A stretch of 48,566 nucleotides of DNA from Cytophagales bacterium (GTDB lineage: Bacteria > Bacteroidota > Bacteroidia > Cytophagales > Cyclobacteriaceae): contig JAKSDO010000159.1 of NCBI GenBank assembly GCA_022360055.1, positions 1 through 48,566 on the forward strand, written 5' to 3'. Shown here piece by piece: positions 12,416 to 41,970 of the stretch. The notes below the pieces were generated by a model, which saw only the letters and a program-made list of their open reading frames with translations, did no database searches and was not told the DNA's origin. The position numbers and the translations under genes are program-made. Each line of letters opens with the position of its first letter. Positions within the stretch are counted from its first letter, which is position 1.

Positions 12416-12532
12416 ATGCATAATTTTTTAGTTAAATGAATAGGTTTAAAAACATAAATGATATTGTTGTTGACTTATTTTTTTGCGCCTTTAATCCGGT
12501 CAATTTTATGGACCATACGAATTGTTATCTTT

Positions 12533-15268: not shown

Positions 15269-15272
15269 GATC

Positions 15273-19310: not shown

Positions 19311-19382
19311 ATCTGATACGTTGAAAAACTTATTATTTAATTTTACCGGTTTTGTATGGATCATTTGTTTAATGGCCAATCT

Positions 19383-24495: not shown

Positions 24496-27400
24496 CTATT
24501 TAAAAAGACAGAGGCTCATGCCGTTTCTACTTATGAGCATCAGGTCGGAATTGTCGTGAGCAGAGACTATTTTTATATCCCGAGCCTCACCACCCAGGGC
24601 AAAGCCACTTTTCATAGGTTCCACATATTCAAATGTTAAATTACCTTTGCCCCGCAAAAACGTTCCAAACGAAGCGTCGAACTTTCCGATACGGGGTTGA
24701 TTCTCATATACATTACCGACAGCCAATACATCTTTACAGCCATCGTCATCAAAGTCTTTTACCGCAAAGCCATAAATTGGAGATATCTGGCTCATGAGCG
24801 GCAAGTCGTGGATCTTGTAATTGCCTTCTTTATTTTCAATAAGCACACTGGATAAGGTTTGAACTGACGCCTTATAGCAATTATGCAACTGCGATTTCGG
24901 AAAGATTTCATTAAATTCATTTTGGGCAAAGATCCTGTAATTTCCAAATACCTGACGTATTGGCGGCATTTGAGTGATCAGTTCGTCAAGCCCCGGATAT
25001 ACCCACTTTCTTCCGTTTTTAGTGTAGGCAATAATAGGATCTAAAACAGCGTTCCCGTCGAAATCTTTCACATACAATTCTATCGGATCGGTTGATGATG
25101 CCGATAACTCAAGATTTCTACCGGTATTGCCTACCAAAAAATCCATATCCCCATCATTATCCAGGTCATTACCACAGATTACATTCCACCATCCGCCGGA
25201 ATTGGGAATCTCCACTTTATTTTGACGATGATCGGAAAATCTGATAATTGTAACGGGCATCCATTCTCCGACCAATACCAGTTCACTCCTTTGGTCCACC
25301 CAAATCCCATCCGAAACCATACCTATTTTACCTCCGTTTTCCAGGTATTTACCTGTTTCATCATGAAATTTTTGGCCATTATTATTTATCAGGATTTTAG
25401 ATTTTGCCCCCAATCCATACGCGCCCGGTTTATGCCTGCCTCCGACAAATAAATCCAGATAACCATCCTTATTCGCATCAATCGGGATTGCGCATGATCC
25501 GATCTCACTAAAACGCGGTAATCCTTCCTTATAAAAAGAAAAAGTGCCAAATCCATCGTTCAGATATAAACGGTCCTCAAGATCTCCGTAATCTTTAATT
25601 TCGTCTCCTCCGCTTACTACATACAAATCAAGATCTCCATCATTTTCCACATCGAAAAAGACAGCATCCATATCCTCACACATTTTGTGCTTTTTAAAAG
25701 ATTCAAAACTTGCTTCAGAAAAGAAGAGTGAATCATTCCCCGTATTTCCCAAGAAAAGCCGAGCGGGCTGACCCCTTCCACCACCTATAAAAAAATCCTG
25801 GACAAGATCACCATTCACATCTCCGACCGCAATTTTCGGACCTTGATTTGATAAGCTCAACGGGATCAGAGGTTCATGAATAATATTGTTATACCCATTT
25901 TCGCTGTGGACAAAATGAACACCCGATTTCTCGCTGATATTATCAAAAAACGTTGCGTCGGTAAGTGTGTCTTTTACAAGTGGTTCGTATGAATCTTCGT
26001 AACGGATAGTAATTTCTTCGGTTCCCTTTGGCACAATCGTCCTGGAAATTCTTCCGTCGTCCCAAGTCACATTTACCTCTGTCTCATTTCTATAGGCCCC
26101 CAGGCCAAACGCTATTGGTCCAACATAGGAGGATAACCAACCTGATGTCGATTTTATACTTTGAAATTGCAATTTTCCTTCGTAAGACAATGAAATTTCG
26201 TTTCCCGGAAAATTGAAAGGGCATCCTCCCTTTATCAATCTTACAGTCAGATTGTTCAGGCCATATATTTCAGTAGATCGATTTTTATATAGCTTCGCCT
26301 GATCTTCAAGGTTGTTCAGGACAATTTCCAAATCGCCATCATTGTCCAGGTCCACGCAAAGTGCTCCATTTGAGTAACCTTCCCAATCCAATCCCCACCC
26401 CAATGTTTTATCATCAAAAGTTAATCCATTGTTCTTAAATGCAAAATTCGACGATCTACCCCCGGGCATCATCGCAATGAGTTCCAAGGATGGCGTTGCC
26501 TCTGCCATTGCCGTGTTGCTATTGACAAATCTTCGATAGTCCAGACTATTTGGTCTATTCGGTATCCCATTGGTGATTAATAGATCTTTCAGACCATCGT
26601 TATCCAGATCAGCCATGATACCGCTCCAGCTCCAATCTGTTTCAGCGACTCCAAGCAATTGACCAATCTCGCTAAAATTATTTATTCCCGGCTCAATCAA
26701 TTCGCCAATATTCTGATGAAGCATGTTTCTGGAAAATTGATAGTGATATCCGGCATCAAGCTTATATCGATAGGTAGGATAAGGATCAATGCCACTGGTC
26801 TGTTTTGAAACAGACTCAGAGGGTGGCTTCATATCCAAGGTCAGGATATCCAGATCTCCATCATTATCAAAATCACCCAGGTCATTACCCATGGATGACT
26901 TGCTTAAATGCCCCATTGATGAAGTCACACTTTCTTTAAACGTACCATCCCCCTTGTTGTAGTAGAGGTAGTCGTTTTCATGGAAGTCATTTGATACAAA
27001 AATATCCTGCCAACCATCATTATTAATGTCGCCGGTACTAACGGCAAGCCCATAGCCCATGGCGCCTCCGTATATACCAGCTTCTTCACTGACATCCTGA
27101 AACTTTCCATTTACATTTTCATACAAGCGGTCTCCCGCCTTTTCCGATCGCTTTTGCCGGTTTATAGCTGGCTTAAAAGATTCAATTGTGTGTACAGCCT
27201 GATTTAACAGGTACATATCGAGATCTCCGTCCTTATCAAAATCAAAAAAAGCCGCATGTTGCGAGAAGGATGAAATATCCAGGTTATAATGACTTGCGGA
27301 TTCAGTGAATGTACCATCTCCATTGTTGACAAATAGTTGGTTGATTCCCCTTAATCCAAGGTGACCATGCATCATACATAAATAAATATCCGGCAAACCG

Positions 27401-27798
27401 TCCTCGTTAATATCAACAATAGTTACACCATTCGACCAGGTATCAATACCCCTAAGCCCTTCGACTCCCGCTTTTTTTGTTACATCTTCAAATTTTAAAT
27501 TTCCACGATTGAAGTAAAGACGATTTGAGCCCTGATTTGAAACAAAATATAGATCAATTAATCCATCATTGTTAAAGTCGCCTGCTCCAATACCACCTCC
27601 GTTGTAAACTGAGAGAAATTCCAGAATGTTGATGCTATCGTTCTCCTGAATGGTATTACGAAATAAAATATTTGTCTTTTCAGCTTCCTGCTCTTTAAAA
27701 AGCTGATTGCCCTCATGCCTTTTACAAGCTGCGCATAAAAGAATTGTTACTCCTGCCAGAAAGTATGCTACATATTTTATAATCGATAAAAAGTTCAT
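24496..27798 (-). CDS. FG-GAP/VCBS repeat lipoprotein with ASPIC/UnbV domain (paralogue 4)
   Basis: 1,100 residues. Lipoprotein signal with LCAAC (Cys25). The N-terminal half holds FG-GAP/VCBS blades with calcium-type loops (GAGDFNNDGLIDLYFVSNQG, DFDKDGDLDMYLLNQAVH, LGDFDNDGDLDILTLDM, DLDNDGDLEIVLNN). An ASPIC/UnbV domain follows at about residues 515-590, ending in TWDDGRISRT. A second propeller set (DVNGDLVQDFFIGGG, DVENDGDLDLYVVSGG, DANKDGYLDLFVGGR, DLDNDGDMDFLVGN) runs to the C-terminus. No catalytic motif is seen. Expected at the cell surface; binding or a structural role is inferred. Separated from its three paralogues by the GH5-like gene, whose stop is 84 nt upstream. Confidence 0.9.
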   Translation of the reverse strand: MNFLSIIKYVAYFLAGVTILLCAACKRHEGNQLFKEQEAEKTNILFRNTIQENDSINILEFLSVYNGGGIGAGDFNNDGLIDLYFVSNQGSNRLYFNRGNLKFEDVTKKAGVEGLRGIDTWSNGVTIVDINEDGLPDIYLCMMHGHLGLRGINQLFVNNGDGTFTESASHYNLDISSFSQHAAFFDFDKDGDLDMYLLNQAVHTIESFKPAINRQKRSEKAGDRLYENVNGKFQDVSEEAGIYGGAMGYGLAVSTGDINNDGWQDIFVSNDFHENDYLYYNKGDGTFKESVTSSMGHLSKSSMGNDLGDFDNDGDLDILTLDMKPPSESVSKQTSGIDPYPTYRYKLDAGYHYQFSRNMLHQNIGELIEPGINNFSEIGQLLGVAETDWSWSGIMADLDNDGLKDLLITNGIPNRPNSLDYRRFVNSNTAMAEATPSLELIAMMPGGRSSNFAFKNNGLTFDDKTLGWGLDWEGYSNGALCVDLDNDGDLEIVLNNLEDQAKLYKNRSTEIYGLNNLTVRLIKGGCPFNFPGNEISLSYEGKLQFQSIKSTSGWLSSYVGPIAFGLGAYRNETEVNVTWDDGRISRTIVPKGTEEITIRYEDSYEPLVKDTLTDATFFDNISEKSGVHFVHSENGYNNIIHEPLIPLSLSNQGPKIAVGDVNGDLVQDFFIGGGRGQPARLFLGNTGNDSLFFSEASFESFKKHKMCEDMDAVFFDVENDGDLDLYVVSGGDEIKDYGDLEDRLYLNDGFGTFSFYKEGLPRFSEIGSCAIPIDANKDGYLDLFVGGRHKPGAYGLGAKSKILINNNGQKFHDETGKYLENGGKIGMVSDGIWVDQRSELVLVGEWMPVTIIRFSDHRQNKVEIPNSGGWWNVICGNDLDNDGDMDFLVGNTGRNLELSASSTDPIELYVKDFDGNAVLDPIIAYTKNGRKWVYPGLDELITQMPPIRQVFGNYRIFAQNEFNEIFPKSQLHNCYKASVQTLSSVLIENKEGNYKIHDLPLMSQISPIYGFAVKDFDDDGCKDVLAVGNVYENQPRIGKFDASFGTFLRGKGNLTFEYVEPMKSGFALGGEARDIKIVSAHDNSDLMLISRNGMSLCLFK

Positions 27799-27882
27799 TC
27801 CAAGAGCTTAGCCATAGATTATCCCGCTCATCAGTACATTACTTACCTGGGTAATGGAATGGGAGTTGCGAATGCAGATAAA

Positions 27883-29013
27883 TCACTCTTCGGCAATCAG
27901 TGATTTGATCAATTGCACTTCATCCTCAGAAAATGGTGTCCCATCTTTTCGGAAAATGTCATGAAACCATACCTCTGGTTCCGAATCAAATGGTTTATCC
28001 CAACTTTTCCAGGGGTAAATGGTATTGGACTTTCCGTTAACAAATCCCCAATTATAAGCGCCTATATTATACTTTTTAAATAATGGGAGAATATTTTCAA
28101 ATCTGGAGTTTGCTGTTCGCGCCATATATTCCGTACATATAATGGGACGACCTGAGGCCGCCAGCATTTTAATCACTTTTTCGGTCAGCTTTTCATTGAA
28201 ATAGGCATGAAAGTTAATGACATCCGAATTATCATAACAAAATTTATCAACCGGGCTCAATTTATTGATGTCAGCATGTGAAGGCGTCCATACATCTGCA
28301 CAGATAGGCTGAGAAGGATTTACTTCCCTGGCCCATGTAAAGACTTTCTCCAGTAGTTTTAGCGAATACTTTTCCTTATTCTTTAATTCGATTTCTCCAT
28401 AGCTGCTTTTGTTTGGGTTAGCCGGCTCATTGTATAAATCCCAGATGAGTACACGTCTATCTTTGCTATACCTTTTCATCGTCTCCTTCACATATCCTTC
28501 CAAATCTTTTTCGTAAAGTTCCAGGTTTTGCAATATCTCCTTTCCGGGGCACTGAACCCAACCGGAATTATGAACACCCTTAATTGGTTCGGGCTGCAAA
28601 CCAGGTTTAGGATTCGGATGCCATACATCATCAAAGAATATTAACATTACATTTATCCCGTGTTTATCGCATATATCAAGAAATTCATCCAGCCTATTGT
28701 AAAAGCCATCTTTATCTTCTTTCCAGGGTAAATAATGAAGAAAAACTCTTAGCGAATTGAATCCTAAACTTTCCGCCCACCCGAGCTCCCTATCTATGAC
28801 TTCAGGTGAGAAGGTATCTTCTTGCCACATCTCAAGTTGATTGATGGCGTTGTACGGCACATAATTACAGCCTATAATCCAATCGTGATTTGCATACCAC
28901 TCATTTGCTTTTGTAGCTGACCATCGATCATTTTCCACATTTCCACTGCCGTATGAGTATTCTGCAATAAAAAATAATATTAAGGCGATCATTGCAATTT
29001 TCGTATATTTCAT
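27883..29013 (-). CDS. GH5-like clan GH-A glycosidase
   Basis: 376 residues with an N-terminal signal peptide (KIAMIALILFFIAEYSYG). TIM-barrel glycosidase of clan GH-A: ESLGFNSLRVFLHYLPW strand, the acid/base motif WDLYNEP (Glu near residue 191), a DVINFHAYFN strand, the nucleophile motif ICTEYMA (Glu near 293), and NWGFVNGKSNTIYPW near the C-terminal substrate-binding region. The N-terminal GCNYVPYNAINQLEMW resembles a group of Bacteroidota GH5-type proteins often labelled cellulase or 1,4-beta-xylanase; the true substrate is not deducible. Placed between FG-GAP/ASPIC genes 3 and 4, it is probably the backbone-cleaving endo-enzyme of PUL 2 (inference). The 350-base region before it may carry a separate promoter. 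Confidence 0.85.
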   Translation of the reverse strand: MKYTKIAMIALILFFIAEYSYGSGNVENDRWSATKANEWYANHDWIIGCNYVPYNAINQLEMWQEDTFSPEVIDRELGWAESLGFNSLRVFLHYLPWKEDKDGFYNRLDEFLDICDKHGINVMLIFFDDVWHPNPKPGLQPEPIKGVHNSGWVQCPGKEILQNLELYEKDLEGYVKETMKRYSKDRRVLIWDLYNEPANPNKSSYGEIELKNKEKYSLKLLEKVFTWAREVNPSQPICADVWTPSHADINKLSPVDKFCYDNSDVINFHAYFNEKLTEKVIKMLAASGRPIICTEYMARTANSRFENILPLFKKYNIGAYNWGFVNGKSNTIYPWKSWDKPFDSEPEVWFHDIFRKDGTPFSEDEVQLIKSLIAEE

Positions 29014-29367
29014 ATGCTTACTTATATGTTTAATAATTGTTGATTAATTCATAGTTTGAATTCATATTATATTACTGTTAAGTAAAAAGTAACGTGTCAT
29101 TTCGAGGCCTGACTTTTTATACAAAACGCACAAATTTGAATGATGCAGTCTTGTGTATTTATTTGATTTATGGATTATTATAAAAACGCGTCCTCGGTAA
29201 CTTGTGAGAAATCCGGTTCAATCAACACCGGGCCGCCACGAATAAGCCAGAGCTCTCCTGACGTCGAAATGACAAGGCAGGAGCCTCGAAATGACAAAAG
29301 CGTCGTTTTAATTTTACTTAATACTACTTTAACTTTCACAACATGGAGCAAGTAGTCCATAGAATAA
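29014..29367. other. Intergenic region with dispersed GTCATTTCGA-type repeat arms
   Basis: 354 bases between FG-GAP/ASPIC gene 3 and the GH5-like gene. It holds REP-like sequence arms (29096-29295). The overlapping ORFs of about 60 codons on both strands follow from the repeat and have no coding features. Confidence 0.6.
29096..29295. repeat. REP-like intergenic element with GTCATTTCGA arms
   Basis: GTCATTTCGAGGC at 29096-29108 is an exact inverse of GCCTCGAAATGAC at 29283-29295, and a second arm CGTCGAAATGAC lies at 29262-29273. A GTGAGAAATCC motif occurs near 29204-29214. The combination of GTCATTTCGA arms with GAGAAATC is a recurrent intergenic repeat type in Bacteroidota genomes (from memory). 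Whether the outer arms form one element or two cannot be told here. Confidence 0.55.
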
Positions 29368-32300
29368 TTAAAGGCTGAAATTGTTAACCTGCATCAACTG
29401 CGGCACATCATTGTTTTTTCCAATAAGCAATATTGGACTTTTATCATTATCATAAATGACATTCACGTTCCGAGCTTCACCAAAGACTGTAAATCCTGTT
29501 TCACGAGGTTCGATGCTCTCCCATTCCTTGTCGCTGTTCAACTTCATAACACATCCGTATGATGCATCATTTCTGCCGATAATCACTTGATTTCCATAAA
29601 AATTGCCTACACTTAGCACTTCCTTCTTACCATTATCATCAAAATCATAAGCGACAAATCCGTTAATAGGTGCCCATTGAAATTCTTCCGGCAGTGGATG
29701 CAATTCAAATTCTCCATCGCCTAAATTCTCAATAAAAACAGATTCAAACATCTTTGCTTGCCATCGCCCGGCTCCTTGTCTATCAGCCTTCGGAAAAACT
29801 TCATCAAAACTGCTTTCGGCATAGCTTTTGTAAGTTGGATACTCGGATTTTATTGCATTGATTTGAGCAGACAATTTATCTCTCCCGAAAAAAGGATATT
29901 CGATACCTTCCTTGAAATATGTTAAAATTGGATCGGGAAGGCCGTTATTATCAAAATCCTTGATATACAGGTTTACAGGAAACCTCGCAGAGGCCTTTAG
30001 CGCAATGTTTAATCCAACATTTCCCACAAATAAATCCTGATCATGGTCACCGTCAATATCCGTGGCATAGATGGTATTCCACCAGCCTTCAGTTCCTTCA
30101 ATTACACTTTTAGCTATCTTCCCGTCACTGAAACTTACGATCGTAATGGGCATCCAATCGCCAACCACAATTAGCTTTTTACTCTCATCCAGCCACACTG
30201 CATCCGTCACCATGCCCAAATTGATCTTGTTGCCAAATGCTTGATTAGATGCATCGAAAAGTTGTCCATTCCCGTCACCAAGAAGAATTCTGCTGCGAGG
30301 ATAGCTTCCATACTTCCCTGGCACGGACCGCCCTCCTACAAATAAATCATCGTTGCCATCTTGATTAATGTCTCCAACAACGGCACAAGAACCACTGAAA
30401 GATAATTGTGGATGCCTTGTTGATTTGGTATAAATACCTTTCCCATTATTTATATATAACCTGTCCTTCAGCGATAGATCATTGAAAAACTCTCCGTGAC
30501 CACTAACTACATATAGATCCAAATCATCATCGCGATCAACATCTATAAATGTCGAGCTTACATCTTCATAAATTCTATCCCGATCAAAAACATCATTTCG
30601 CAATTCTTCAAACTTTAAGTCATTGTTTGCTAATTGGATATAAAGTTTAGATGATTGATTTCGCGCACCACCTATAAAAAAGTCATCCAATCCATCTCCG
30701 TTAACATCTCCGACAGATAATGCGGGTCCGTCCGTTGATAATTTTCTTGGAATAACCGGATAATATTCGAAGTCATTATAGGCATTTTCTCTATGTATAA
30801 AATCTATTCCGACATCGTTCCCGATCTCTTCAAATAATCGGTGATCGGTATTATTCGACGGATCTCTTTCCCAGTCTGTTGCATTGTTATAATCTGCTAC
30901 CAGGGTTTGATTTGCATTTACATTCTTAAGTTTCTGTATCTTACCATCTTTCCAATCAATTGTGATTTCGTCAACCATATCCGCAGTCCCCATGCCAAAC
31001 GTTAAGGTATGCTCCACGGATGACAACCAACCTTTTACCGGAAACAATTCCTGTACCTGAATATTTTTTTTGGTCTTCAAAATCACCCTGGCGCCAATTC
31101 CAAACCTGTTGTCTTCTCCTCCTTTCAGCTTCAGTTTAATGTAGTTATGGCCAGTATTTTGTGATGCCAAATTTTCATAGATCGTCGACGCTTTGTTTAA
31201 ATTGTTAATCACCAAATCCAGGTCTCCGTCATTATCGAAATCAGCATAGGCACTTCCGTTCGAACTTCCCATCAAGCCAAGCCCCCATGCATCAGTTACA
31301 TCCTGAAACTTATTTCCAATGTTCCGAAAAGCCTTGTTTGAAGCTTCTCCACCAGGCATTTGTTCAATCAATGACACCCAATCAGGACGTTCCTCTTCTT
31401 CACTTCTCGCTGTCAAATCATCCAGATAATCCAGATCAATGGGACTTCGGGGAATTCCATTGGTTATGAACAGGTCCTTTTTACTGTCCAGATCAAGATC
31501 GGCAAACAACGGCGCCCAACTCCAGCCTGTGGCCGATATTCCCGCGTACTCACCGATTTCACTAAATTGGCACCCCGCTCCCCACAACACTCCGCGATTC
31601 ACCTGCAATACATTTCTTTGGTATTGATAATGATATCCCTGTTCCAATCTGGACTGATAAATCTCATGATCATCTGATGTCAATGACATCTTTTGTATTT
31701 GTTCGCTATTGGATTTCATGTCCAGAACGATCAGATCGAGCCAGCCGTCATTATTAAAGTCTGCCAGATCGCTGCCCATGGATGAAAATGAGGTATGACC
31801 AAATGAGGATCTGACATTTTCCTCAAACGTACCATCCTTTTTATTGTAATAGATATAATCATTTTCATGGAAGTCATTTGCAACGTATATATCCGGGTAG
31901 CAATCATTATTGATGTCTCCTATGCAAAAGGATAAACCATAGCCCATTGATCCTCCATAAATCCCCGCTGTTTCACTCACATCTTCAAACCTTCCATTAT
32001 TGTTTTTATAAAGCCGGTCGCCTGCTAAGCTATCCCGGGATACCCTAAAATCACCATGGCGAATCGATTTTGAAGAATGTTCGGATTGATTGAGTAAAAA
32101 CATATCCAGATCACCGTCGAGATCATAATCAAAAAAAGATGCCTGTTGAGAATAACTTCGTATATCAAGCCCGTACGCCGATGCGCGTTCAACAAAGGTT
32201 CCATCCTTTTGGTTTATAAATAGCCTGTTCCTGCCAATTACACCTTTAATTCCATGTAACTCACAAACATAAATATCCAGCCAGCCATCGGTATTTATAT

Positions 32301-32682
32301 CCGCCATCGTGACACCGGTCGTCCACTTATTCATACCAACATCTCCTTTAATCCCGGCAGCTTCTGAAACATTCAGGAATTTTAGATCTCCCTGATTAAC
32401 ATATAAGCTGTTGGCGCCTTGGTTGGATGCCAAATAAATGTCGGCAAGTCCGTCATTATTGATATCTCCAACAGCGACTCCCGCACCATTGTACCAATAA
32501 ATGCATCGTTCGATATTGTATTCTTCTGAATCTTCAATTTTATTCATAAAATCAATTCCTGTTTTGGCAGTAGGTAACTGCCTGAACATCGTCTGATTTT
32601 CACATGCAATAAACAGCACTATTGAGCATATTGACAATAACGTTTTTACAGTTTTTTGAATCAAAATCTCTACTCCCCCCAT
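29368..32682 (-). CDS. FG-GAP/VCBS repeat lipoprotein with ASPIC/UnbV domain (paralogue 3)
   Basis: 1,104 residues. Lipoprotein signal ends FIAC (Cys27). The architecture matches its paralogues: N-terminal FG-GAP blades (GVAVGDINNDGLADIYLASN, DYDLDGDLDMFLLNQS, DFNNDGWLDLIVLDM, DFDNDGDLDLVINNL), an ASPIC/UnbV domain at about 512-600 (GIGARVILKT, then VKGWLSSVEHTLTFGMG), and a second blade set (DVNGDGLDDFFIGGARNQ, DVDRDDDLDLYVVSGHG, DINQDGNDDLFVGGR, DIDGDHDQDLFVGNVG). The calcium-binding pattern DxDxDGxxD recurs throughout. The start overlaps the stop of the upstream paralogue by 13 bases, so translation is probably coupled. No other upstream ATG keeps the signal peptide. Confidence 0.92.
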   Translation of the reverse strand: MGGVEILIQKTVKTLLSICSIVLFIACENQTMFRQLPTAKTGIDFMNKIEDSEEYNIERCIYWYNGAGVAVGDINNDGLADIYLASNQGANSLYVNQGDLKFLNVSEAAGIKGDVGMNKWTTGVTMADINTDGWLDIYVCELHGIKGVIGRNRLFINQKDGTFVERASAYGLDIRSYSQQASFFDYDLDGDLDMFLLNQSEHSSKSIRHGDFRVSRDSLAGDRLYKNNNGRFEDVSETAGIYGGSMGYGLSFCIGDINNDCYPDIYVANDFHENDYIYYNKKDGTFEENVRSSFGHTSFSSMGSDLADFNNDGWLDLIVLDMKSNSEQIQKMSLTSDDHEIYQSRLEQGYHYQYQRNVLQVNRGVLWGAGCQFSEIGEYAGISATGWSWAPLFADLDLDSKKDLFITNGIPRSPIDLDYLDDLTARSEEEERPDWVSLIEQMPGGEASNKAFRNIGNKFQDVTDAWGLGLMGSSNGSAYADFDNDGDLDLVINNLNKASTIYENLASQNTGHNYIKLKLKGGEDNRFGIGARVILKTKKNIQVQELFPVKGWLSSVEHTLTFGMGTADMVDEITIDWKDGKIQKLKNVNANQTLVADYNNATDWERDPSNNTDHRLFEEIGNDVGIDFIHRENAYNDFEYYPVIPRKLSTDGPALSVGDVNGDGLDDFFIGGARNQSSKLYIQLANNDLKFEELRNDVFDRDRIYEDVSSTFIDVDRDDDLDLYVVSGHGEFFNDLSLKDRLYINNGKGIYTKSTRHPQLSFSGSCAVVGDINQDGNDDLFVGGRSVPGKYGSYPRSRILLGDGNGQLFDASNQAFGNKINLGMVTDAVWLDESKKLIVVGDWMPITIVSFSDGKIAKSVIEGTEGWWNTIYATDIDGDHDQDLFVGNVGLNIALKASARFPVNLYIKDFDNNGLPDPILTYFKEGIEYPFFGRDKLSAQINAIKSEYPTYKSYAESSFDEVFPKADRQGAGRWQAKMFESVFIENLGDGEFELHPLPEEFQWAPINGFVAYDFDDNGKKEVLSVGNFYGNQVIIGRNDASYGCVMKLNSDKEWESIEPRETGFTVFGEARNVNVIYDNDKSPILLIGKNNDVPQLMQVNNFSL

Positions 32683-35600
32683 AAGCTCTCCAACATTTCA
32701 AAATCAAAAAATTGCATTTTCTCATTGTTGCGAACTATTGTCAATAGATCTTTCCCTTGCACCTCCAATACTTCGATGTCCCTGACCTGACCTTCCAGTG
32801 CCAAACCGGTACATGCGTTTGAAATAGGAATAAAATCACCATTGCCCTTTCCGCGAAGAAAAACACCATAGCTGGCATCATATCTTCCAACTTCCGGCTT
32901 AGCTTCAAATAAGTTTCCGCCCAAAAGAATATCCAGGTTCTCATCTTTATCAAAGTCGTAGATTTTGATGGCATAAACCGGAGCTAACTGAACCTCTTTC
33001 GGCAACGGTTCAATACGAAAAGTTCCATCGCCGTTATTAATCAAAAGAATACTCTCCAGAATCTTAGCTTCAAGTTTTATCGAATTTCCTATTTGACTTT
33101 CACTGAAAATGTCCGTAATAGTCAGACCTTTAAATGACGCATACTTGGCAAATCTTGATTTAAATGTTGGCATTTGCATTACAAAATCATGTCTCAGCAT
33201 CATGGGATAAGACTTGTCTCCCTTATACGTGCAGATAATCTGTTCAACAATTCCATTTTGGTCAAAATCATTTACATAACAAGTAACAGGTTTATGTTTG
33301 CTCGCTCTGAACCGTGAGTTTAATCCATGATTTCCAATCACATAATCGGGGTCCCCGTCTCCATCCAGATCTTCTGACTCTATTGTATTCCACCACCCTG
33401 AAGACGAGCTGAGCTGAGCTTCTTTGGTGACATCATAAAAGTTCCCTTCTCGGTTTTCAAACACTTTGATATTCATCCATTCTCCTATGATGATGATATC
33501 ATCGTCATTATCCATATCAAAGTCTGTCCATACAGCGTCTCTGATCATTCCAATACCAAGCATTCCGCCAGCCAGATCTTTTGTCACATTTGTAAAATTC
33601 CCATCACCGTCATTTTCGAGCAGATAACCATCCTGTGGCACGCCAATCAAACCTGATTTAAGCCGTCCTCCGACAAACAGGTCCAGGTCTCCGTCCCGAT
33701 CAAAATCACTCGCCCTTACCACGGAAGTACTAACAGGCTTCCCAACAGGTAATAATTGACCGGACCTGGACATATTACCCGTCCCATCGTTTAGATAGAG
33801 CCGATCAACGAGTGCGAAGGAAGTGGACACAAATTCGCTCCCTCCGCTTACAACATACAAATCCTCATCCCCATCTCCATCCGCATCAAAAAAAACACAT
33901 GACACATCTTCACTCGCCTTATCATGCATAAATGGCTCTTGCATTGATCTTACGAAGTGCCCGTTCGACTTCTGAAGAAGTAAAGCACCTTCAAAATCTT
34001 TGGCCCCTCCGATATAGTAATCCATCAATCCGTCTCCATTTACATCGGCAATTGCCATTTTCGGGCCTTCAGCGGATATCATGTGAAAAAGCAACTTATC
34101 CTTGTGAAAATCCACAAATTTATTTTCATGATGCCTGAAACTTTCCTGAACAAAAACCTCTTTAAACATTGATTTATCTGAGACAGGATTATTTGTTTTT
34201 CCGTCATATTTGACTCCCTCTTTCTCATGCAATTCAAGCGTTTGATTGGTTCTCACATCGGTTAAAATGGATTTTGTGCCATAAGGCCAGTCAATAATCA
34301 CCGTATCTACTTCCAGGCGTTTACCCAGACCAATGTTTATACGGTTATCAACAGAAGATTGGAATCCTCTGGTTGGAAATTGCTCCATATAAATCGTCTC
34401 ACCATTTGTTTTCACGGTAATTTTTGTTCCATACGCTGCCAAATTCTTTCTTTCACCATGGAGGATGAATTTCAGATACGTATGAACTCCCATTCTATTT
34501 GTTTGATTTTCATAAACAAATACGGGCATATTTACATTATTTACCACAAGGTCGAGATCTCCATCATTATCAAGATCTCCATATGCCGCCCCATTTGAGT
34601 GACTTTTTTTGTGTAACCCCCATTCCTGCGTGACATCCTCAAAACCAAATTCTCCATTTCCGGAATAGGTGTAGTTTGATATTTTACTAACCGGGATGAT
34701 CTCGATCAATTGATCATAATCAACGCCCCGATCACTTACGATCATTTTTATCACATTTTTATCGGATATGTATTGAAGGTAATCCTGATTTAATATATCC
34801 TGAGCCAATCCGTTTGCGATGTACAGATCTTTAAAGCCATCATTATCAAGGTCAGCTAACAGTGAACTCCAGCTCCAGTCGGTGGCTTCTACCTTAGCAT
34901 ATCTGCCTACTTCGCTAAAGGTGACTCCCCTGCCGGGAATTATTCCATTGTGACGATGCAGCATATTCCTGGTAAATTGATGATAATAACCGTTTTCAAG
35001 ATTGTAGATGTATTTGTCCCAGTTTTCGAATGTCATGGTGGTCTTAAAACGCTCTTCTCCCTCGGGCAGCATTTCCGTTACAAAGACATCAGGATACCCG
35101 TCATTATTCATATCGGCAATATCGGAACCCATGGAAGCCAAACTTATCGATCTCATTTGCTTTTCGAGCTCCTCTCTGAATGTGCCGTCGCGATTATTCA
35201 TATAGATGTAGTCTCTTTCAAAAAAATCATTTGATATGTACAAATCCGCCCAACCATCTTTATCAAGGTCACTCACAGAAACACCGAGAGCAAAACCAAT
35301 CACACTTTGGTAAATACCTGCTTCCAGACTAACATCTTTGAAAACCCCATCCTCATTTCTGAATAATTTGTCTCCTCCCAACTGATCTCTTTTGGGCCTT
35401 TCGTTCTTTTTAAGATTAAAGCTGCCTATCGCCCGGTATGAATTATTTAACAGGTAAACATCAAGATCCCCGTCTTTATCATAATCAAAAAACGTGGCGT
35501 GCGTTGAAAATCCCGGATCATCCAGGCCCAATTCTTTCGCCCTATCAGTGAATGTCCCGTCTCCATTATTAATAAAAAACTCATTTCTTTTGTCATCCCC

Positions 35601-36032
35601 CCGGACGTCCCCGGAATTGCAGACATAAATATCCAACCACCCGTCAGCATTGATATCAACCATCGTCACTCCAGTGGACCAGGCCCTTTTTCCTCCTATC
35701 TGTGCTCCTGCCGAAACATCTTCAAATTGTAAGTTTCCTTTATTGATGTACAATCTGTTAGGTAATAGATTTGCCACCAAATAGATATCCAAAAGGCCAT
35801 CGTTATTGATATCACCTAATCCGACGCCTCCTCCATTGTAATAATTCCGGTATTTGTAGATGTTGAACTCATTCGTGTAAGTTAATGTATTTTCAAAATC
35901 AACACCTGTCTCCTCTGAGCCAAGAAGCCTGAACAAGCTATCGTGTTCCCGCTCGTTTACATGACACGAATAAAAAGTGAGACCGAAGAGAAGGATGCCG
36001 TACTTAAAGAATATGGAAGGACACAACAGCAT
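32670..36032 (-). CDS. FG-GAP/VCBS repeat lipoprotein with ASPIC/UnbV domain (paralogue 2)
   Basis: 1,120 residues from the ATG at 36032, which gives a standard lipoprotein signal (IFFKYGILLFGLTFYSC, Cys23). The frame is open to an ATG at 36140, but that start would place 36 extra residues before the signal. N-terminal FG-GAP blades (GVGLGDINNDGLLDIYLVAN, DYDKDGDLDVYLLNNS, DLDNDGDLDLVVNNV) are followed by an ASPIC/UnbV domain at about 520-605 (AAYGTKITVKTNGE, FPTRGFQSSVDNRINIGLG) and a second blade set (DVNGDGLMDYYIGGAK, DADGDGDEDLYVVSGG, DFDRDGDLDLFVGGR, DLDGDGDPDYVIGNHG). Overlaps paralogue 3 by 13 bases and follows the small lipoprotein gene. Confidence 0.9.
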   Translation of the reverse strand: MLLCPSIFFKYGILLFGLTFYSCHVNEREHDSLFRLLGSEETGVDFENTLTYTNEFNIYKYRNYYNGGGVGLGDINNDGLLDIYLVANLLPNRLYINKGNLQFEDVSAGAQIGGKRAWSTGVTMVDINADGWLDIYVCNSGDVRGDDKRNEFFINNGDGTFTDRAKELGLDDPGFSTHATFFDYDKDGDLDVYLLNNSYRAIGSFNLKKNERPKRDQLGGDKLFRNEDGVFKDVSLEAGIYQSVIGFALGVSVSDLDKDGWADLYISNDFFERDYIYMNNRDGTFREELEKQMRSISLASMGSDIADMNNDGYPDVFVTEMLPEGEERFKTTMTFENWDKYIYNLENGYYHQFTRNMLHRHNGIIPGRGVTFSEVGRYAKVEATDWSWSSLLADLDNDGFKDLYIANGLAQDILNQDYLQYISDKNVIKMIVSDRGVDYDQLIEIIPVSKISNYTYSGNGEFGFEDVTQEWGLHKKSHSNGAAYGDLDNDGDLDLVVNNVNMPVFVYENQTNRMGVHTYLKFILHGERKNLAAYGTKITVKTNGETIYMEQFPTRGFQSSVDNRINIGLGKRLEVDTVIIDWPYGTKSILTDVRTNQTLELHEKEGVKYDGKTNNPVSDKSMFKEVFVQESFRHHENKFVDFHKDKLLFHMISAEGPKMAIADVNGDGLMDYYIGGAKDFEGALLLQKSNGHFVRSMQEPFMHDKASEDVSCVFFDADGDGDEDLYVVSGGSEFVSTSFALVDRLYLNDGTGNMSRSGQLLPVGKPVSTSVVRASDFDRDGDLDLFVGGRLKSGLIGVPQDGYLLENDGDGNFTNVTKDLAGGMLGIGMIRDAVWTDFDMDNDDDIIIIGEWMNIKVFENREGNFYDVTKEAQLSSSSGWWNTIESEDLDGDGDPDYVIGNHGLNSRFRASKHKPVTCYVNDFDQNGIVEQIICTYKGDKSYPMMLRHDFVMQMPTFKSRFAKYASFKGLTITDIFSESQIGNSIKLEAKILESILLINNGDGTFRIEPLPKEVQLAPVYAIKIYDFDKDENLDILLGGNLFEAKPEVGRYDASYGVFLRGKGNGDFIPISNACTGLALEGQVRDIEVLEVQGKDLLTIVRNNEKMQFFDFEMLESLWGE

Positions 36033-36187
36033 TTTAGGCTTATCTGTATAAATGCTTGCTACGATTTCCGCCATTGCCCCATAGCAGATGCTTTTAATTG
36101 ATTTAACTTTCATCAGATAAAACCACAATCCCGTGCTCATCGATCAACTATTAAATATTTCATTCGACAAACTGTAAAAAAAGATCA

Positions 36188-36766
36188 TCACATTATTGGC
36201 TTCAAATCTTCGTACACCACATACACCTCTCCGGTATCGACATCTTGTTCTAATGTTATTTTCCTATTTGAATCTACCTTCACATATATCGCCGGTTTCC
36301 ATTTTTCCTCTGGCCATATTTCGATGAATTTTCTGCCTCCGTACCATTCCTCGAACTGCTTGACCAAATCTTTGATCAGCACTTCGGCACCGCGCTCTTT
36401 ACTAAACGGATTTCTCCCCTCATACCTGAATCTTCCCCTTAGCACTTGTATTAAGTGCTTTTCAAGATTTGGATGAAAAACAAAACTTGCGGGAAATTTC
36501 AACTGATCTTCAAAGCGAATAATTACTTCGCTCGAAAATCCATTCTGATAGAAGATTTTCCGTTGATTCATTAATGTGCAATGATCCAGGAAGGCAGGAG
36601 TGGTCATGTTAAAATAAAGACCGTAGAACAAACTATCTTCTCTTACTTCCTTCGACAGCTCTTCCCGGAGTATCTCCTCATACGAAACATGACTTGAACA
36701 CGACAATGAGATCGCCGCGACAACAATCGATAAAACGGAAAACCAATAATTGCTATTTGTCTGCAT
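36188..36766 (-). CDS. Small lipoprotein of unknown function in the FG-GAP/ASPIC cluster
   Basis: 192 residues from the ATG at 36766; the frame is open to a TTG at 36838. The signal peptide WFSVLSIVVAAISLSC gives lipid Cys23. The mature part is mixed alpha/beta: a charged helix (YEEILREELSKEVREDSLFY), a central FRYEGRNPFSKERGAEVLIK segment, and a C-terminal beta stretch (YVKVDSNRKITLEQDVDTGE). It begins inside the 3' end of paralogue 1 (14-base overlap) and precedes paralogue 2, so it is co-translated with the giant lipoproteins. I do not recognise the family. Lipidation, size and placement suggest a dedicated accessory subunit of this surface system (inference). Confidence 0.8.
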   Translation of the reverse strand: MQTNSNYWFSVLSIVVAAISLSCSSHVSYEEILREELSKEVREDSLFYGLYFNMTTPAFLDHCTLMNQRKIFYQNGFSSEVIIRFEDQLKFPASFVFHPNLEKHLIQVLRGRFRYEGRNPFSKERGAEVLIKDLVKQFEEWYGGRKFIEIWPEEKWKPAIYVKVDSNRKITLEQDVDTGEVYVVYEDLKPIM

Positions 36767-39700
36767 CTTCTTTTTTAGTAAAAACCTTGACAGAATTATT
36801 ATTTCTGGCAACCAGCAGATACACTTCATTTTGAACAACTATTTTTTGCATATCACGAATTTCTCCCCTGACAAAAAAACCCGATTCCTCCGGAGGAACC
36901 GAATCAAATCCATGACCATTGAATCGAATAACCGAACCATAAGAAGCCATATAGCTGCCCAATTGAGGTTTTGACCTGCTTTGATTACCTCCGAAAAATA
37001 ATTCATTAGTGTCATCATCGTCCATATCAAATGATACAATGCTGTAGATCGGAGCCAATTGACAAATCCGTGGTAATCGCTCTCCTGAAAAATATCCATT
37101 TTGATTCCAAAATACCATTGAAGCTGTTTCGTAAACTTCCCTCCTTCTTGCATGAGTCATTTGATCAGCAGAAAACAATTCACTTATTGTTTTCTCTTTA
37201 TAAGAATTATGCGTCGGGTATTTTTCTTTCAAGTAAGGTAATTGTTGTGTGATTTCCCTCCAGGGAGCGATTGGGTATGACTGATTCCCTTCAGGTACGG
37301 ATATAATGTGATCCAGATTTCCATCCAAATTAAAATCAGATGTGTGCAAGGTGACGGGATTATTATTCCCTGTCCTCAAAATGGTGTTTGTGCCCATATT
37401 CCCGGCAATTAAATCGAAGTCTCCATCTCGATCCGGGTCGGCAAAACTGATCGTATTCCAAAAACCATTCGTCCTTAAAAATCCAAGGCTATCGGAATAA
37501 TCAGTAAATCCGGATACTTCATTTTTGAATACTTTAATTTGCATCCAATCTCCGCAAATGAACAGATCCTTGCGACCATCGTGATCATAATCGTACCATT
37601 CGGCATCGGTAACCATCCCTAAATTCACAAAATCCGTTGCAATCCTGTCAGTTACATTTTTAAAATTTCCATTCCCATCATTTTCAAGAAGCAGGCTTTT
37701 TCCCTCAATACCATAGGAAAGCGCTTTGACTCTATTGCCAACGAAAACATCCTTATCCCCGTCATTATCATAATCCGCTACAGATAGGCATGACGTAACT
37801 GATAAATCATTTCCGAGAATTTTTACGTCTTTTTCATGAAACTCTCCTCTACCGTTATTTACATAAATCCAGTTGGCCAGACCGAATGAACTACCCGAAA
37901 ATTCGTACCCTCCATGAGCTATTAATAAATCCTCATCACCATCATGATCTATATCTACAAAATGCGCATCCGTATCCTCCGAATCCTGGTGTGAGTTGAA
38001 AATATCAAAGGAAGAACTGGTAAATCCTCCGTGTACGTCGCTTAGGTAAAGTGCACCTGGCTGACCTTTAGCTCCACAGAAATAAATATCCTGCACCCCA
38101 TCTTCATTCGCATTTCCTATGGCAATTTTCGGCCCCTCATTGGTAATCATTTGAGGTAACAGAATATCTCGACCGAAGTCATTGAACTCATTTTCCACAT
38201 GAGCCCAAGCAAATCCTAACTCCTCCGACACCTCGCTTAACAATTGTGATCGCGAGGGTTCCTTTTTTCGGCTTAATGTCAATACCGAGTCTTTAGTTTT
38301 CTCAATCTCCAAAACCTGATTTACGCCGACATCATACTCATATTGAACAAATCCATCTGGCCAAATAATTTCTATGGAATCAATTTTGTCCATACTTCCA
38401 AGTCCGAAATGGAGCCTGTTAGTAACCGTCGACATTGATCCTCTAAATGGCAATAATTCTTGAAAAAGCTTCATATCATCCGCGAATAAGGTTACCTGAG
38501 CACCTACTGCATGCACATTTCTGCCCATCCCTTTCAAAGCAATACTGAGGTACCGATTATCTGATATCTGAGAAGTGTTGTTCCGATAGATAAAAGGTGA
38601 CATATTAATGTTGTTGACAATAATGTCCAGGTCTCCATCATTATCGAGATCACTATATGCTACACCATTTGAAAAACCCGGCTGATATGTTCCCCATTTT
38701 TTGCTGACTTCATTATATACCATGTCTTCTGTCTGAGTGTACAAATGATTTGAAACAGGTACAGAAGGCATTAACTCGATCAAATCCGTAATAATGGAAC
38801 CCTTTTCTCTAAACGTAGATTTCATTTCTCTGCTATTCGCATGAAATGTCAAATAATCCAAATCGATGAGATCTTTGAAAATTCCGTTGGTAACATATAT
38901 TTCTTTATGGGTATCATTGTCCAGATCAACCAAGACAACGCCCCAACTCCAGTCCGTTGCTTCGGTACCGCTTAACCTGGAAATTTCGCTGAATAATGTT
39001 CTGTTCCTAGCGTCATAATATCCGGTATTCAACTGCAGCGTGTTTCGAGGAAATTGTTGATGATATCCCATGCTCCTTTTAAAACTATACATGTCCCAGC
39101 TATCAAATAAAACTTTTGTCTTGGACCGTTTATCTCCCTTGGGGAGCATCTCCGTGACATAAATATCCGGGAAACCATCATTATTTATGTCGGCAATGTC
39201 GACTCCCATGGCTCCTTGGCTGGATTCTGTAATAGTTTCATTGATGGACTCTGTGAATGTCCCATCCTGATTATTGATATATAGATAATCTTTTTCAAAA
39301 AAATCATTCGCCACATAGATATCCTGCCAACCATCTCTGTTGACGTCTCCGATACAAACCCCCAGGCCAAAGCCGATGGCGCTGCCATAAATACCGGCTT
39401 GCTCGCTAATGTCTGTAAATTTGTTGCCATCATTTCGATACAGCTTATTTCCTCCGCCCGGATCACGCGTATTTCTAAGATCAAGTTTTGGCTCGATGAC
39501 TATTTCGGATGGGTAAATGGAATTGTTCAAAAGATAAACGTCAAGGTCATTGTCTCTATCCATGTCAAAGAAAGCGGCATGCACGGATAAACCCAGATCA
39601 TCTAAACCGTATGCTTTAGCCGATTCTTGAAATTGCGGTATTCCTTCACGATCCGTACCAAGATTAATAAAGAGCTCATTGTGTCTGTTTTCACCTTCTG

Positions 39701-40112
39701 GTTTACCTCCTTTACACACATAAATATCCAACCGACCATCTCCATTAATATCAATAATACTGACACCATTTGACCAAACACCTGAGCTTGCAATATCGAC
39801 CCTGTCGGTTATATCCCTAAAAGTGAAATCGCCCTGATTGAGATATAATTTATTGTCAACCTGATTCCCGCAAAAAAAGATGTCTTCAAATCCGTCATTA
39901 TTAATGTCCCCGATACCGACACCTGCACCATTGTAAAAGCTCTTGTACAGATATACATTGAAATCTTCCGTATAGGAAAGGTTATTTCGGAAATCGATGC
40001 CAATTTCAGACGCATCCACCTGCTCAAAGACCGCTTCATTATTTTCGAGCTTCTGACTACAGCCCAAAAAACCAAGTAATGCATAATAATATATATATCC
40101 TCTCATCAACAT
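36753..40112 (-). CDS. FG-GAP/VCBS repeat lipoprotein with ASPIC/UnbV domain (paralogue 1)
   Basis: 1,119 residues. Short lipoprotein signal ending FLGC (Cys18); an alternative ATG lies two codons downstream at 40106. N-terminal FG-GAP blades (GVGIGDINNDGFEDIFFCGN, DINGDGRLDIYVCKGG, DMDRDNDLDVYLLNNS, DVNRDGWQDIYVANDF, DLDNDGDLDIIVNNI) are followed by an ASPIC/UnbV domain at about 517-600 (AVGAQVTLFADD, LPFRGSMSTVTNRLHFGLG, IIWPDGF) and a second blade set (NANEDGVQDIYFCGAK, DIDHDGDEDLLIAHGG, DYDNDGDKDVFVGNR, DPDRDGDFDLIAGNMG). First enzyme-side gene after the SusCD pair, 183 nt past the susD stop and behind a strong terminator. Function unknown; surface location inferred. Confidence 0.92.
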   Translation of the reverse strand: MLMRGYIYYYALLGFLGCSQKLENNEAVFEQVDASEIGIDFRNNLSYTEDFNVYLYKSFYNGAGVGIGDINNDGFEDIFFCGNQVDNKLYLNQGDFTFRDITDRVDIASSGVWSNGVSIIDINGDGRLDIYVCKGGKPEGENRHNELFINLGTDREGIPQFQESAKAYGLDDLGLSVHAAFFDMDRDNDLDVYLLNNSIYPSEIVIEPKLDLRNTRDPGGGNKLYRNDGNKFTDISEQAGIYGSAIGFGLGVCIGDVNRDGWQDIYVANDFFEKDYLYINNQDGTFTESINETITESSQGAMGVDIADINNDGFPDIYVTEMLPKGDKRSKTKVLFDSWDMYSFKRSMGYHQQFPRNTLQLNTGYYDARNRTLFSEISRLSGTEATDWSWGVVLVDLDNDTHKEIYVTNGIFKDLIDLDYLTFHANSREMKSTFREKGSIITDLIELMPSVPVSNHLYTQTEDMVYNEVSKKWGTYQPGFSNGVAYSDLDNDGDLDIIVNNINMSPFIYRNNTSQISDNRYLSIALKGMGRNVHAVGAQVTLFADDMKLFQELLPFRGSMSTVTNRLHFGLGSMDKIDSIEIIWPDGFVQYEYDVGVNQVLEIEKTKDSVLTLSRKKEPSRSQLLSEVSEELGFAWAHVENEFNDFGRDILLPQMITNEGPKIAIGNANEDGVQDIYFCGAKGQPGALYLSDVHGGFTSSSFDIFNSHQDSEDTDAHFVDIDHDGDEDLLIAHGGYEFSGSSFGLANWIYVNNGRGEFHEKDVKILGNDLSVTSCLSVADYDNDGDKDVFVGNRVKALSYGIEGKSLLLENDGNGNFKNVTDRIATDFVNLGMVTDAEWYDYDHDGRKDLFICGDWMQIKVFKNEVSGFTDYSDSLGFLRTNGFWNTISFADPDRDGDFDLIAGNMGTNTILRTGNNNPVTLHTSDFNLDGNLDHIISVPEGNQSYPIAPWREITQQLPYLKEKYPTHNSYKEKTISELFSADQMTHARRREVYETASMVFWNQNGYFSGERLPRICQLAPIYSIVSFDMDDDDTNELFFGGNQSRSKPQLGSYMASYGSVIRFNGHGFDSVPPEESGFFVRGEIRDMQKIVVQNEVYLLVARNNNSVKVFTKKEDADK

Positions 40113-40295: not shown

Positions 40296-41942
40296 TTATT
40301 CTCCGGACAGATAATCCACCTGCTTAAGATTCGGATTTGCATCAATCTGTGCCTGCGGAATAGGATACCATCTCTTCCTCGGATCGCTGTCGGTTTTCAA
40401 CATCCACTCATCCTCCCAGTGTCCAAACCTAATCGTTATCTCTCTAGCCTGACCTTCGAGGGCCAATTCTTTCTTAAACTCCTGATACAGATCATCTTCA
40501 GTAAGAGAAGATAAGTCCTGGTCGATACCGGCACGATTTCTTATTTGATTGACAATCATTAAGGCTTCGGCATCTCCACTGTTCTGTCTCCAAAGTGCTT
40601 CGGCACGAATTAGCAATGCTTCACCATACCTGAAAATCACACAATCATTATTGAGTCCCGGAGGAACATTTTGTTCCAATTCATATTTGCCATATCTCGC
40701 ACCATGTCTGTAAGGAGTAATATTTGGTCTTACGCCTTCTTCACCAACGGTAAATTTGTAACTAGGCGTAATAAATATGTTACACGCATCTTCAAAGTTA
40801 TCTCCGTCACTATTTGGAGGCCAGCCTAACTGCTCGCGTTCTCCGGCACTAAATTGATTAAAATCTTCATCACAATTATACAACTTATGTTGTTCGGCCG
40901 GATTGGCATAAAAGAATCCCTCGGTATCCGACCATCCCGGACCGGCAGCCTGCGAGTATTGTTGACCGACAATAAACATTCCCTTTCTATTATCCTCATC
41001 ATCAAATGAGTTGTAAAAATCTTCCTGAACACTGAATCCTCCCCAAGGTGCTGCTGAATATCCGAATGTCGGTCCGGCAGATTGATGCAAAGCCATATGC
41101 GGTATATTAAAAGAATTCATATTTGTTCTATCGTATGGCACAACAAACATATTTTCTTTCGAACCCTCATTGTTTATTCTGAAATTCGCAAAATACCCGG
41201 CTTCAATATCATACAATCCACTATTTGTTATGGCTTGCACTGCATCCGCGGCTTCTTTATAATGTGGTTCGACTCCATAGCGCCCGGCATTTATATACAG
41301 CTTTGCTAATACCATATATGCGACCCACTTGTTTACCTTGGCATATGTTGTTACATCTTTGGATTCCTTTAAGTCGGGAATTGCTGTTAACAATTCGTCC
41401 TCGATAATTTCGAAAGCTTCAGCCGGCGTTTTTTGAGCAGGCTGGGGATCCGCCTCAGCAAATCTTAGCTCTACCGGGATATTTCCAAAATTGTCTAAAC
41501 CAACCCAAAGATAGAATGCTCTTAGCGCTCTCAATTCTGCGACCGCACCAGGGTCCACATCACCAAGCTCATCCAAAAACTCAATAAGTCGATTACATGT
41601 TGCTGTTCCGTTGAAAGCGATATTCCACGGCCTGTCCTGGCTCCAGTCTCTTGCCGCCCAATCACGGGACATATATCTCGGCCATACGTTGCCGTCATCC
41701 CACCCCCCGTTGGAACGGATTGGAACTGTTGCCACATCAGACATCGCATCACCGGTAAGAGCTATGTTATCCCACCAACCCTGAAGAGGTTTGTAGGCTG
41801 AAGCCGTAAACGCCAACAATTGCGCTTCATTCTCAAAATAATCCTCAGGTAATATCTCATTGTAAACCTCAGGATCTAAATCCGTACAAGACTGAATGAT
41901 TGTGAAATTTACAATCAACAGCATTAATAATACCTTTTTCAT
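40296..41942 (-). CDS. SusD/RagB-family surface glycan-binding lipoprotein (PUL 2)
   Basis: 548 residues. Signal peptide MKKVLLMLLIVNFTIIQSC with lipid Cys19, followed by TDLDPEVYNEILPEDYF, the classic SusD N-terminus. Conserved blocks: LRALRAFYLWVGLDNFGNIP helix region, AYMVLAKLYINAGRYG tetratricopeptide repeat, and the C-terminal CVIFRYGEALLIRAEALWRQ and QEFKKELALEGQAREITIRF segments. ATG start unambiguous. It begins 28 nt after the susC stop and ends before a strong terminator. It acts as the glycan-binding lid of the SusC channel. Confidence 0.96.
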   Translation of the reverse strand: MKKVLLMLLIVNFTIIQSCTDLDPEVYNEILPEDYFENEAQLLAFTASAYKPLQGWWDNIALTGDAMSDVATVPIRSNGGWDDGNVWPRYMSRDWAARDWSQDRPWNIAFNGTATCNRLIEFLDELGDVDPGAVAELRALRAFYLWVGLDNFGNIPVELRFAEADPQPAQKTPAEAFEIIEDELLTAIPDLKESKDVTTYAKVNKWVAYMVLAKLYINAGRYGVEPHYKEAADAVQAITNSGLYDIEAGYFANFRINNEGSKENMFVVPYDRTNMNSFNIPHMALHQSAGPTFGYSAAPWGGFSVQEDFYNSFDDEDNRKGMFIVGQQYSQAAGPGWSDTEGFFYANPAEQHKLYNCDEDFNQFSAGEREQLGWPPNSDGDNFEDACNIFITPSYKFTVGEEGVRPNITPYRHGARYGKYELEQNVPPGLNNDCVIFRYGEALLIRAEALWRQNSGDAEALMIVNQIRNRAGIDQDLSSLTEDDLYQEFKKELALEGQAREITIRFGHWEDEWMLKTDSDPRKRWYPIPQAQIDANPNLKQVDYLSGE

Positions 41943-41970
41943 AATTATATATCTTTAAATCCTGTAACTA

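Follow-up and report, generated by a model that had tools for sequence, protein, structure and literature searches.

A SusCD locus with FG-GAP/ASPIC lipoproteins and a small companion lipoprotein: a candidate outer-membrane uptake system that recurs in Bacteroidota

Introduction

In the levan and dextran utilisomes of Bacteroides thetaiotaomicron, lipoproteins that are encoded together with a SusCD pair form a stable complex on that pair, and the same work calls for the study of more distant Bacteroidetes (PMC7618045). Here we analyze a locus from a Cytophagales bacterium (assembly GCA_022360055.1, contig JAKSDO010000159.1), in which four large lipoproteins with FG-GAP and ASPIC/UnbV domains, called A, B, C and D, and a small lipoprotein, called S, are encoded at positions 24496..40112 behind one SusCD pair. 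The window denotes the whole stretch of DNA that was analyzed, which is 48,566 nucleotides long.

FG-GAP/ASPIC proteins are numerous in the host draft genome (7.5 Mb, 300 contigs), with 28 ASPIC matches next to 88 SusD_RagB matches, and in the literature searched we found no job assigned to them in Bacteroidota. The open-access literature, preprints excluded, yielded no study in which ASPIC/UnbV, FG-GAP or VCBS is connected to SusD in the present sense. We will argue that a dedicated system for uptake across the outer membrane, of the composition SusC-SusD-A-S-B(-C) and organized as a stoichiometric complex, is represented in the window, a reading to which we assign a probability of roughly 60%.

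Results

The small lipoprotein S is, judged by its conservation, a genuine protein family, and one without a named family in Pfam, NCBIfam or PDB sequences. Searches of these three collections gave no significant match (best PDB E values 0.31-0.32), PHROGs returned E values of 0.12-0.19 only, and the weak PDB and PHROGs matches are at chance level; the plasmid collection searched did not match S either. The alignments of the family show a conserved lipid cysteine and conserved core motifs, and this conservation rules out a chance open reading frame (ORF). By phmmer, S was found in 21 of 59 relatives, a count that includes the own genome and one match (G054) judged to be false, and a profile built from 25 rows detected it in 27 of 395 phylum-wide genomes, again with the own genome included, corresponding to 14 of 171 genera. 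A scan of named genomes, which partly overlap the other sets, gave 34 S loci, with hosts that include Algoriphagus, other Cyclobacteriaceae, Bacteroidales, Chitinophaga, Xanthocytophaga, Rhodohalobacter, Rhodothermales and a metagenome-assembled genome of Flavobacteriaceae. The candidate at L064 was rejected as an S homologue on account of its E value of 2.8e-4, internal stops and the absence of a profile match.

For the gene neighborhood, 86 S ORFs were collected, of which 76 were kept after dropping those at least 90% identical; the neighboring genes were labelled by home-made profiles on mechanically called ORFs, and the distant S at L065 was retained in the counts. An ASPIC gene lies directly downstream of S, that is within 600 bases, at 66 of the 73 loci with room (7 have none within this distance, and 3 more loci are at a contig edge), and directly upstream at 62 of the 76, being absent there in 14. 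SusD is found within 5 kb upstream at 51 of 64 loci with room, with 13 lacking it and 12 at an edge. In 42 of the 76 loci, S is followed by two or more ASPIC ORFs, with fragments included. The median junction on both sides of S is a 4-nt overlap, as measured with mechanical ORF starts, which suggests translational coupling. The initial annotation had raised the question of whether the small lipoprotein travels with its ASPIC neighbors, and at most places where S was found it does.

The ASPIC proteins were then placed in trees. A and B were already largely separated by position in an initial tree of 72 rows. In a FastTree of 202 rows, which takes ASPIC proteins of at least 800 residues after trimming and omits contig-edge pieces, upstream ASPIC proteins of about 600 residues, S loci at least 90% identical in S and one ordinary L022 row, a single branch with support 100 is formed by 46 A, 61 B, 2 C and one row labelled 'pre'. 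All 33 ASPIC proteins of haloperoxidase loci without S (see below) and all 17 of the S-less loci of the own genome fall outside this branch, and a long-branch L022 protein falls outside all groups. The branch divides into three groups and shows lineage-specific duplications: 37 A, 1 'pre' and 1 B make up the A group, 41 B, 2 C and 1 A the B group, and 19 B and 8 A are mixed in the third; the stray C rows come from a local triplication at L046, where S and a B-type ASPIC gene are repeated as identical copies, and from L062, where B is split into two ORFs. When 46 rows of 17 hand-chosen loci, with the mixed lineages L046, L075, L089 and L109 left out, are analyzed under a mixture model, the tree gives an A clade (12/12, SH-aLRT 99) and a B clade (12/12, SH-aLRT 98) as sisters. 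A and B are thus positional orthologues in most lineages.

A corresponding pattern is seen for the transporter. In a SusD FastTree of 79 rows, a branch of 52 rows with support 94 consists of all 49 SusDs upstream of S together with those of L084, L089 and L111, and nothing else; this tree holds few rows unlinked to S and came with long-branch warnings. Taken together, the neighborhood of S, the A/B clade and the single S-linked SusD clade support a co-inherited system of SusCD and A-S-B(-C). The multi-subunit assembly that the initial annotation had suggested gains from the A/B orthology and the SusD clade, and on these sequence comparisons a complex of SusCD with A-S-B(-C) is likely.

It is important to point out the loci that weigh against this picture. 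ASPIC genes are absent on both sides of S in L051 and L052; in L065, S stands beside another FG-GAP protein; and L058 has no upstream ASPIC gene while its contig ends downstream. The upstream ASPIC gene is also missing in L048, L078, L084, L099, L111, L118 and L122, B is missing in L096 and L105, where A is present, and in 8 of the 76 loci (L076, L077, L080-L083, L123 and L124) the upstream ASPIC protein has only about 600 residues. An opposite-strand ORF directly follows the last ASPIC gene in 20 of the 76 loci; in L084 and L111 this is the locus's own SusD. In the 202-row tree, A and B are mutually nearest in L046, L075 and L089, and the L109 B lies inside the A group, which means that the A/B split is not universal. 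Some of the neighborhood misses are technical or positional, namely ORF-calling gaps in L086, SusCD on the other strand in L084 and L111, and a SusD just past the limit in L089. B is present in L048, L099, L118 and others in which A is not directly upstream of S, and the genomes of L051, L052 and L058 (G031, G007) carry fuller copies elsewhere (L042, L046, L063).

Three individual loci deserve a separate description. At L065:4059-10119, the distant S homologue is found next to a PorP/SprF gene and an FG-GAP protein of 1228 residues that has a type IX secretion (CHU_C) domain; SusCD was not found within the fetched stretch. L096:7102-12388 holds a GH127 gene (GH denotes a glycoside hydrolase family), a C-terminal ASPIC fragment and then S in-frame with an FtsX/MacB-like part, and is either a rearranged locus or an assembly error. 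The same-genus locus L041 keeps A, S, B and D, followed by four GH127 genes; its C gene is present as two ASPIC pieces, with 555 and 553 residues (L041:13622-16911), and is broken or misassembled there.

We now consider the large proteins themselves. A, B, C and D each match Pfam FG-GAP_3, FG-GAP and UnbV_ASPIC above the cut-off, D with a weak ASPIC score of 24.9 bits against a cut-off of 23.4, and the lipobox scan finds a lipobox cysteine in all four and in S. The ORFs, Pfam matches and lipobox scan thus confirm the initial annotation in its description of four lipoproteins of about 1,100 residues and one of 192 residues behind one SusCD pair. It had also called the four copies diverged, and their pairwise identity is indeed 35.3-44.6% across 1,080-1,106 aligned residues, so that they are not recent near-identical copies and a recent duplication is ruled out. 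The calcium-loop motif D-x-[DN]-x-[DNG] occurs 20-29 times per large protein, overlapping matches included, compared to means of 4.3-5.2 in shuffled sequences, an approximately 4- to 6-fold excess. Grouped manually, the loops take up seven positions ahead of the ASPIC domain in A-D and about seven behind it in both A and B, the bare pattern giving slightly different numbers after the domain. From this we infer that A/B-type proteins may fold as two seven-bladed propellers. The only strong match to a solved structure is CRTAC1 (PDB 9etn), with an E value of 6.2e-22 for the B profile and 2.1e-12 for the A protein alone. D groups with C in the trees, not with A or B, and is orthologous to L041_E of the same-genus locus (61-62% identity); by its tree position, it is an additional C-type protein, shared with that locus and outside the general core.

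Discussion

In the mechanism that we propose, SusC and SusD would constitute a TonB-powered transporter, and A, B and C, as lipid-anchored double propellers with calcium loops, would be joined with S in a stoichiometric complex on that particular SusCD. A, B and C would bind the substrate and position it at SusCD, while S may serve as an adaptor or assembly factor for the A/B-type propellers. In the window genome the system would feed three GH127 enzymes and a GH5-like enzyme, and the presence of these enzymes in the run points to a plant or algal glycan containing beta-L-arabinofuranose as the probable substrate. An extracytoplasmic function (ECF) sigma factor is the probable regulator of the operon, and together with a FecR protein it would probably turn the system on. 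The significance of the proposal is that A/B orthology tied to one SusD clade and to S turns an anonymous annotation into a definable and testable system.

The side of the membrane on which the lipoproteins reside is the point at which the proposal meets its strongest rival. Acidic export signals of lipoproteins are known from Bacteroides and Capnocytophaga. In the fetched loci, 61 of 78 SusDs have at least three D/E within residues +2 to +7 behind the lipid cysteine. As a further point against the proposed system, the corresponding counts are 1/44 for A, 3/60 for B, 5/37 for C and 1/79 for S (5/111 for the remaining lipobox ORFs at these loci); this criterion comes from other lineages and is uncalibrated for Cytophagales, and SusD is an imperfect control whose N-terminus may be conserved for other reasons. 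In this respect A, B, C and S of the fetched loci lack the mark expected of utilisome components, and the surface placement put forward in the initial annotation is not borne out. This leaves the surface model open and makes a periplasmic assembly a serious rival, in which A, B, C and S would be outer-membrane lipoproteins that face the periplasm and pass imported substrate from SusC to periplasmic enzymes. Such an arrangement would also fit the GH5-like enzyme, which is lipobox-negative in the scan, and GH127 enzymes, which are commonly periplasmic. Export signals vary among Bacteroidota lineages, however, so that the contrast with SusD carries the reservations just given, and large propellers with calcium loops are found more often outside cells. 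We regard the periplasmic placement as a real possibility, somewhat short of an even chance.

Another alternative is that the ASPIC lipoproteins are ordinary surface glycan binders that act independently, each with its own ligand, and that operon inheritance alone keeps their order. In the own genome, according to a manual reading, 17 of the 22 ASPIC matches whose frames exceed 1,000 residues have SusD upstream within one gene run, as do none of the 6 matches in shorter frames, and several SusCD loci of this genome have a single ASPIC gene. Across loci, SusCD is followed by as few as one and as many as four ASPIC genes, as would be the case for accessory binders. On the other hand, the placement of S, usually between A and B, the positional orthology across classes and the S-linked SusD clade exceed what loose accessories would give, and we consider independent binding to be unlikely.

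These counts also bear on the wider association. That ASPIC proteins are unlinked to SusCD is ruled out for the own genome. Among 12 S-less genomes, picked from 20 without a match in the 395-genome S search, ASPIC was found in 5 (27 matches), and in three of them (G046, G065 and G091) SusD is upstream of at least 7 of 16 long ASPIC genes; G103, taken up below, combines five clustered ASPIC genes with one SusD genome-wide. The tie to SusCD that the initial annotation anticipated across genomes is therefore repeated, though not universal.

We next turn to the genes behind the core. The commonest partner is a vanadium haloperoxidase, encoded at most five genes downstream of S in 16 of the 76 loci; the member at L061 matches the Zobellia enzyme (PDB 4cit) with an E value of 2.3e-143, and the others match by phmmer or profile. 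GH127 genes follow the core in the window (three) and in L041 (four), adjoin S in L051, and adjoin an ASPIC remnant and S in L096. A Pfam scan limited to selected genes further identified GH32 (L043), GH95 (L057), a GMC oxidoreductase (L109), a 3-keto-disaccharide hydrolase (L049, L105), a sugar isomerase-like protein (L075), an amidase (L072) and an enolase-like protein (L042). The initial annotation had built the lipoproteins into an arabinofuranosidase locus, and this tie does not extend to the family, whose core is also found with these other genes or with no recognizable cargo. Since many loci have no recognized enzyme behind the core, a glycan substrate is not implied for the whole family, and the presence of SusCD by itself does not signify a glycan locus.

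Haloperoxidase loci outside the S loci were also inspected. Among 20 of these, picked from the upper part of the match list of a haloperoxidase search (78 of 395 genomes), 12 have ASPIC as the immediate upstream neighbor, 3 have it one or two genes off and 5 lack it. The 15 with ASPIC are L126, L127, L130-L133, L136, L137 and L139-L145, and 11 of them have a SusC gene upstream in the fetched stretch. ASPIC and haloperoxidase are thus tied independently of S.

It is conceivable on these grounds that the ancestral role of the system lay with the haloperoxidase, in uptake or surface modification and not in glycan uptake, and that the copy in the window was recruited to arabinosides. Both the downstream partner at S loci and the ASPIC genes at the S-less loci speak for this. 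The haloperoxidase is nevertheless found in many more genomes than the 27 with S, many S loci have other or no recognized cargo, and the search of the own genome, which had no positive control, found none. We therefore hold a haloperoxidase origin to be quite improbable. The association does suggest a cellular setting for Zobellia-type vanadium haloperoxidases.

Finally, neutral clustering, with tandem ASPIC genes as a byproduct of duplication and without joint function, could appeal to the expansion of ASPIC in the own genome and to the genome G103, in which five ASPIC genes with frames of 840-903 residues are close together on one contig (C55:7374-20539) and a single SusD_RagB match is found genome-wide, but the old divergence with kept order and the retention of the non-homologous S between the copies make it scarcely credible.

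A broader version of the proposed system can be formulated, in which SusCD-A-S-B-C would be a phylum-wide machine apart from glycan loci, a transporter-plus-propeller chassis with swappable enzymes and, in S, a small lipoprotein subunit not described before, the haloperoxidase hinting at ancestral oxidative or halogen chemistry at the envelope. This extension we consider tentative and rather doubtful.

Layout of the Window

The features are collected in Table 1. Their order of transcription on the minus strand is sigma factor, FecR, SusC, SusD, A, S, B, C, GH5-like enzyme, D and the three GH127 enzymes, so that the SusCD pair (40296-45318) and the FecR/sigma genes (45452-47478) are immediately upstream of the 24496..40112 stretch. 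With SusC adjacent to SusD and carbohydrate-active enzymes (GH5-like and GH127) in the same run, the window has the make-up of a SusCD-type polysaccharide utilization locus. A and S overlap by 14 nt, with S starting at 36766, S and B are separated by 47 nt, and B and C overlap by 13 nt; A, S, B and C hence form the nearly continuous run that had been described. By alignment, B probably has its conserved start around 36032 rather than at 36140.

Table 1. Features of the proposed operon in the window, in order of transcription.
Feature	Position	Strand	Basis
ECF-type sigma factor	46843..47478	-	Pfam Sigma70_r4_2, Sigma70_r2
FecR-type anti-sigma protein	45452..46516	-	Pfam FecR, FecR_C
SusC (TonB-dependent transporter)	41971..45318	-	Pfam Plug, TonB barrel; NCBIfam TIGR04056, E 1.2e-190
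SusD	40296..41942	-	Pfam SusD_RagB; S-linked SusD clade in tree; TDLDPE after lipid cysteine
A: FG-GAP/ASPIC lipoprotein, 1119 residues	36753..40112	-	Pfam; lipobox; A group in trees
S: small lipoprotein, 192 residues	36188..36766	-	Conserved family; lipobox; no significant Pfam, NCBIfam or PDB match
B: FG-GAP/ASPIC lipoprotein, at most 1156 residues	32670..36140	-	Pfam; alignment; B group in trees
C: FG-GAP/ASPIC lipoprotein, 1104 residues	29368..32682	-	Pfam; C-type branch in trees
GH5-like enzyme, N-terminal hydrophobic stretch, lipobox scan negative	27883..29013	-	Pfam Cellulase, E 2.8e-11
D: additional C-type FG-GAP/ASPIC lipoprotein, 1100 residues	24496..27798	-	Pfam; sister of L041_E, 61-62% identity
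GH127 beta-L-arabinofuranosidase-like enzyme	22039..24006	-	Pfam, E 9.4e-107
GH127-like enzyme, C-terminal domain match absent	19865..21988	-	Pfam
GH127 enzyme with F5/8 type C domain	16788..19379	-	Pfam

The window also contains a separate second SusCD locus (2002-14391), with a GH92 enzyme joined to a GDSL lipase domain, a DUF5005/DUF4185 protein, a GntR-type regulator and two ORFs without a Pfam match. Between the two SusCD loci, on the plus strand, there is a pair consisting of a penicillinase repressor (BlaI-like) and a BlaR1 M56 peptidase (14897-16472).

Comparison with Known Systems

For the haloperoxidase, the nearest solved relative of the gene at the sister locus L061 is the vanadium iodoperoxidase of Zobellia galactanivorans (PDB 4cit/4usz), an enzyme type not found in the own genome by the search without positive control mentioned above. 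The available part of a study of iodoperoxidase in Zobellia does not mention FG-GAP, ASPIC or VCBS (PMC9296495). In the Arenibacter genome paper, iodoperoxidase homologues and SusD counts are given separately, and iodine uptake needed calcium (PMC5064120), which we take as a lead and nothing more.

The best solved relative of A and B, CRTAC1 or cartilage acidic protein 1, is an animal protein with 586 residues in the PDB entry, whereas A-D have about 1,100 residues, calcium loops flanking the ASPIC domain on either side and predicted lipid anchors. The PusCD phosphate systems of Flavobacterium are likewise SusCD-like pairs outside classical glycan loci; they carry phosphatases and phosphodiesterases, and FG-GAP, ASPIC, VCBS and haloperoxidase are not mentioned in the main text (PMC8115612).

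The utilisomes are a close parallel. They share with the present locus the SusCD core and co-encoded lipoproteins, which here are co-inherited with SusCD according to the neighborhood counts and the ASPIC and SusD trees. In the utilisomes, the lipoproteins are equimolar, with the lip of SusC as their platform, and SusCD is supplemented by a surface glycan-binding protein and a glycoside hydrolase, one of each (PMC7618045). In the putative complex of the present locus, the additional subunits would be the FG-GAP/ASPIC proteins and S, which have no hydrolase match. As for the initial suggestion of an undescribed system, the recurring arrangement of SusCD with A-S-B(-C) is real and apparently undescribed, and its transporter is of a known type, for which reason we place it among the SusCD systems rather than in a categorically new kind.

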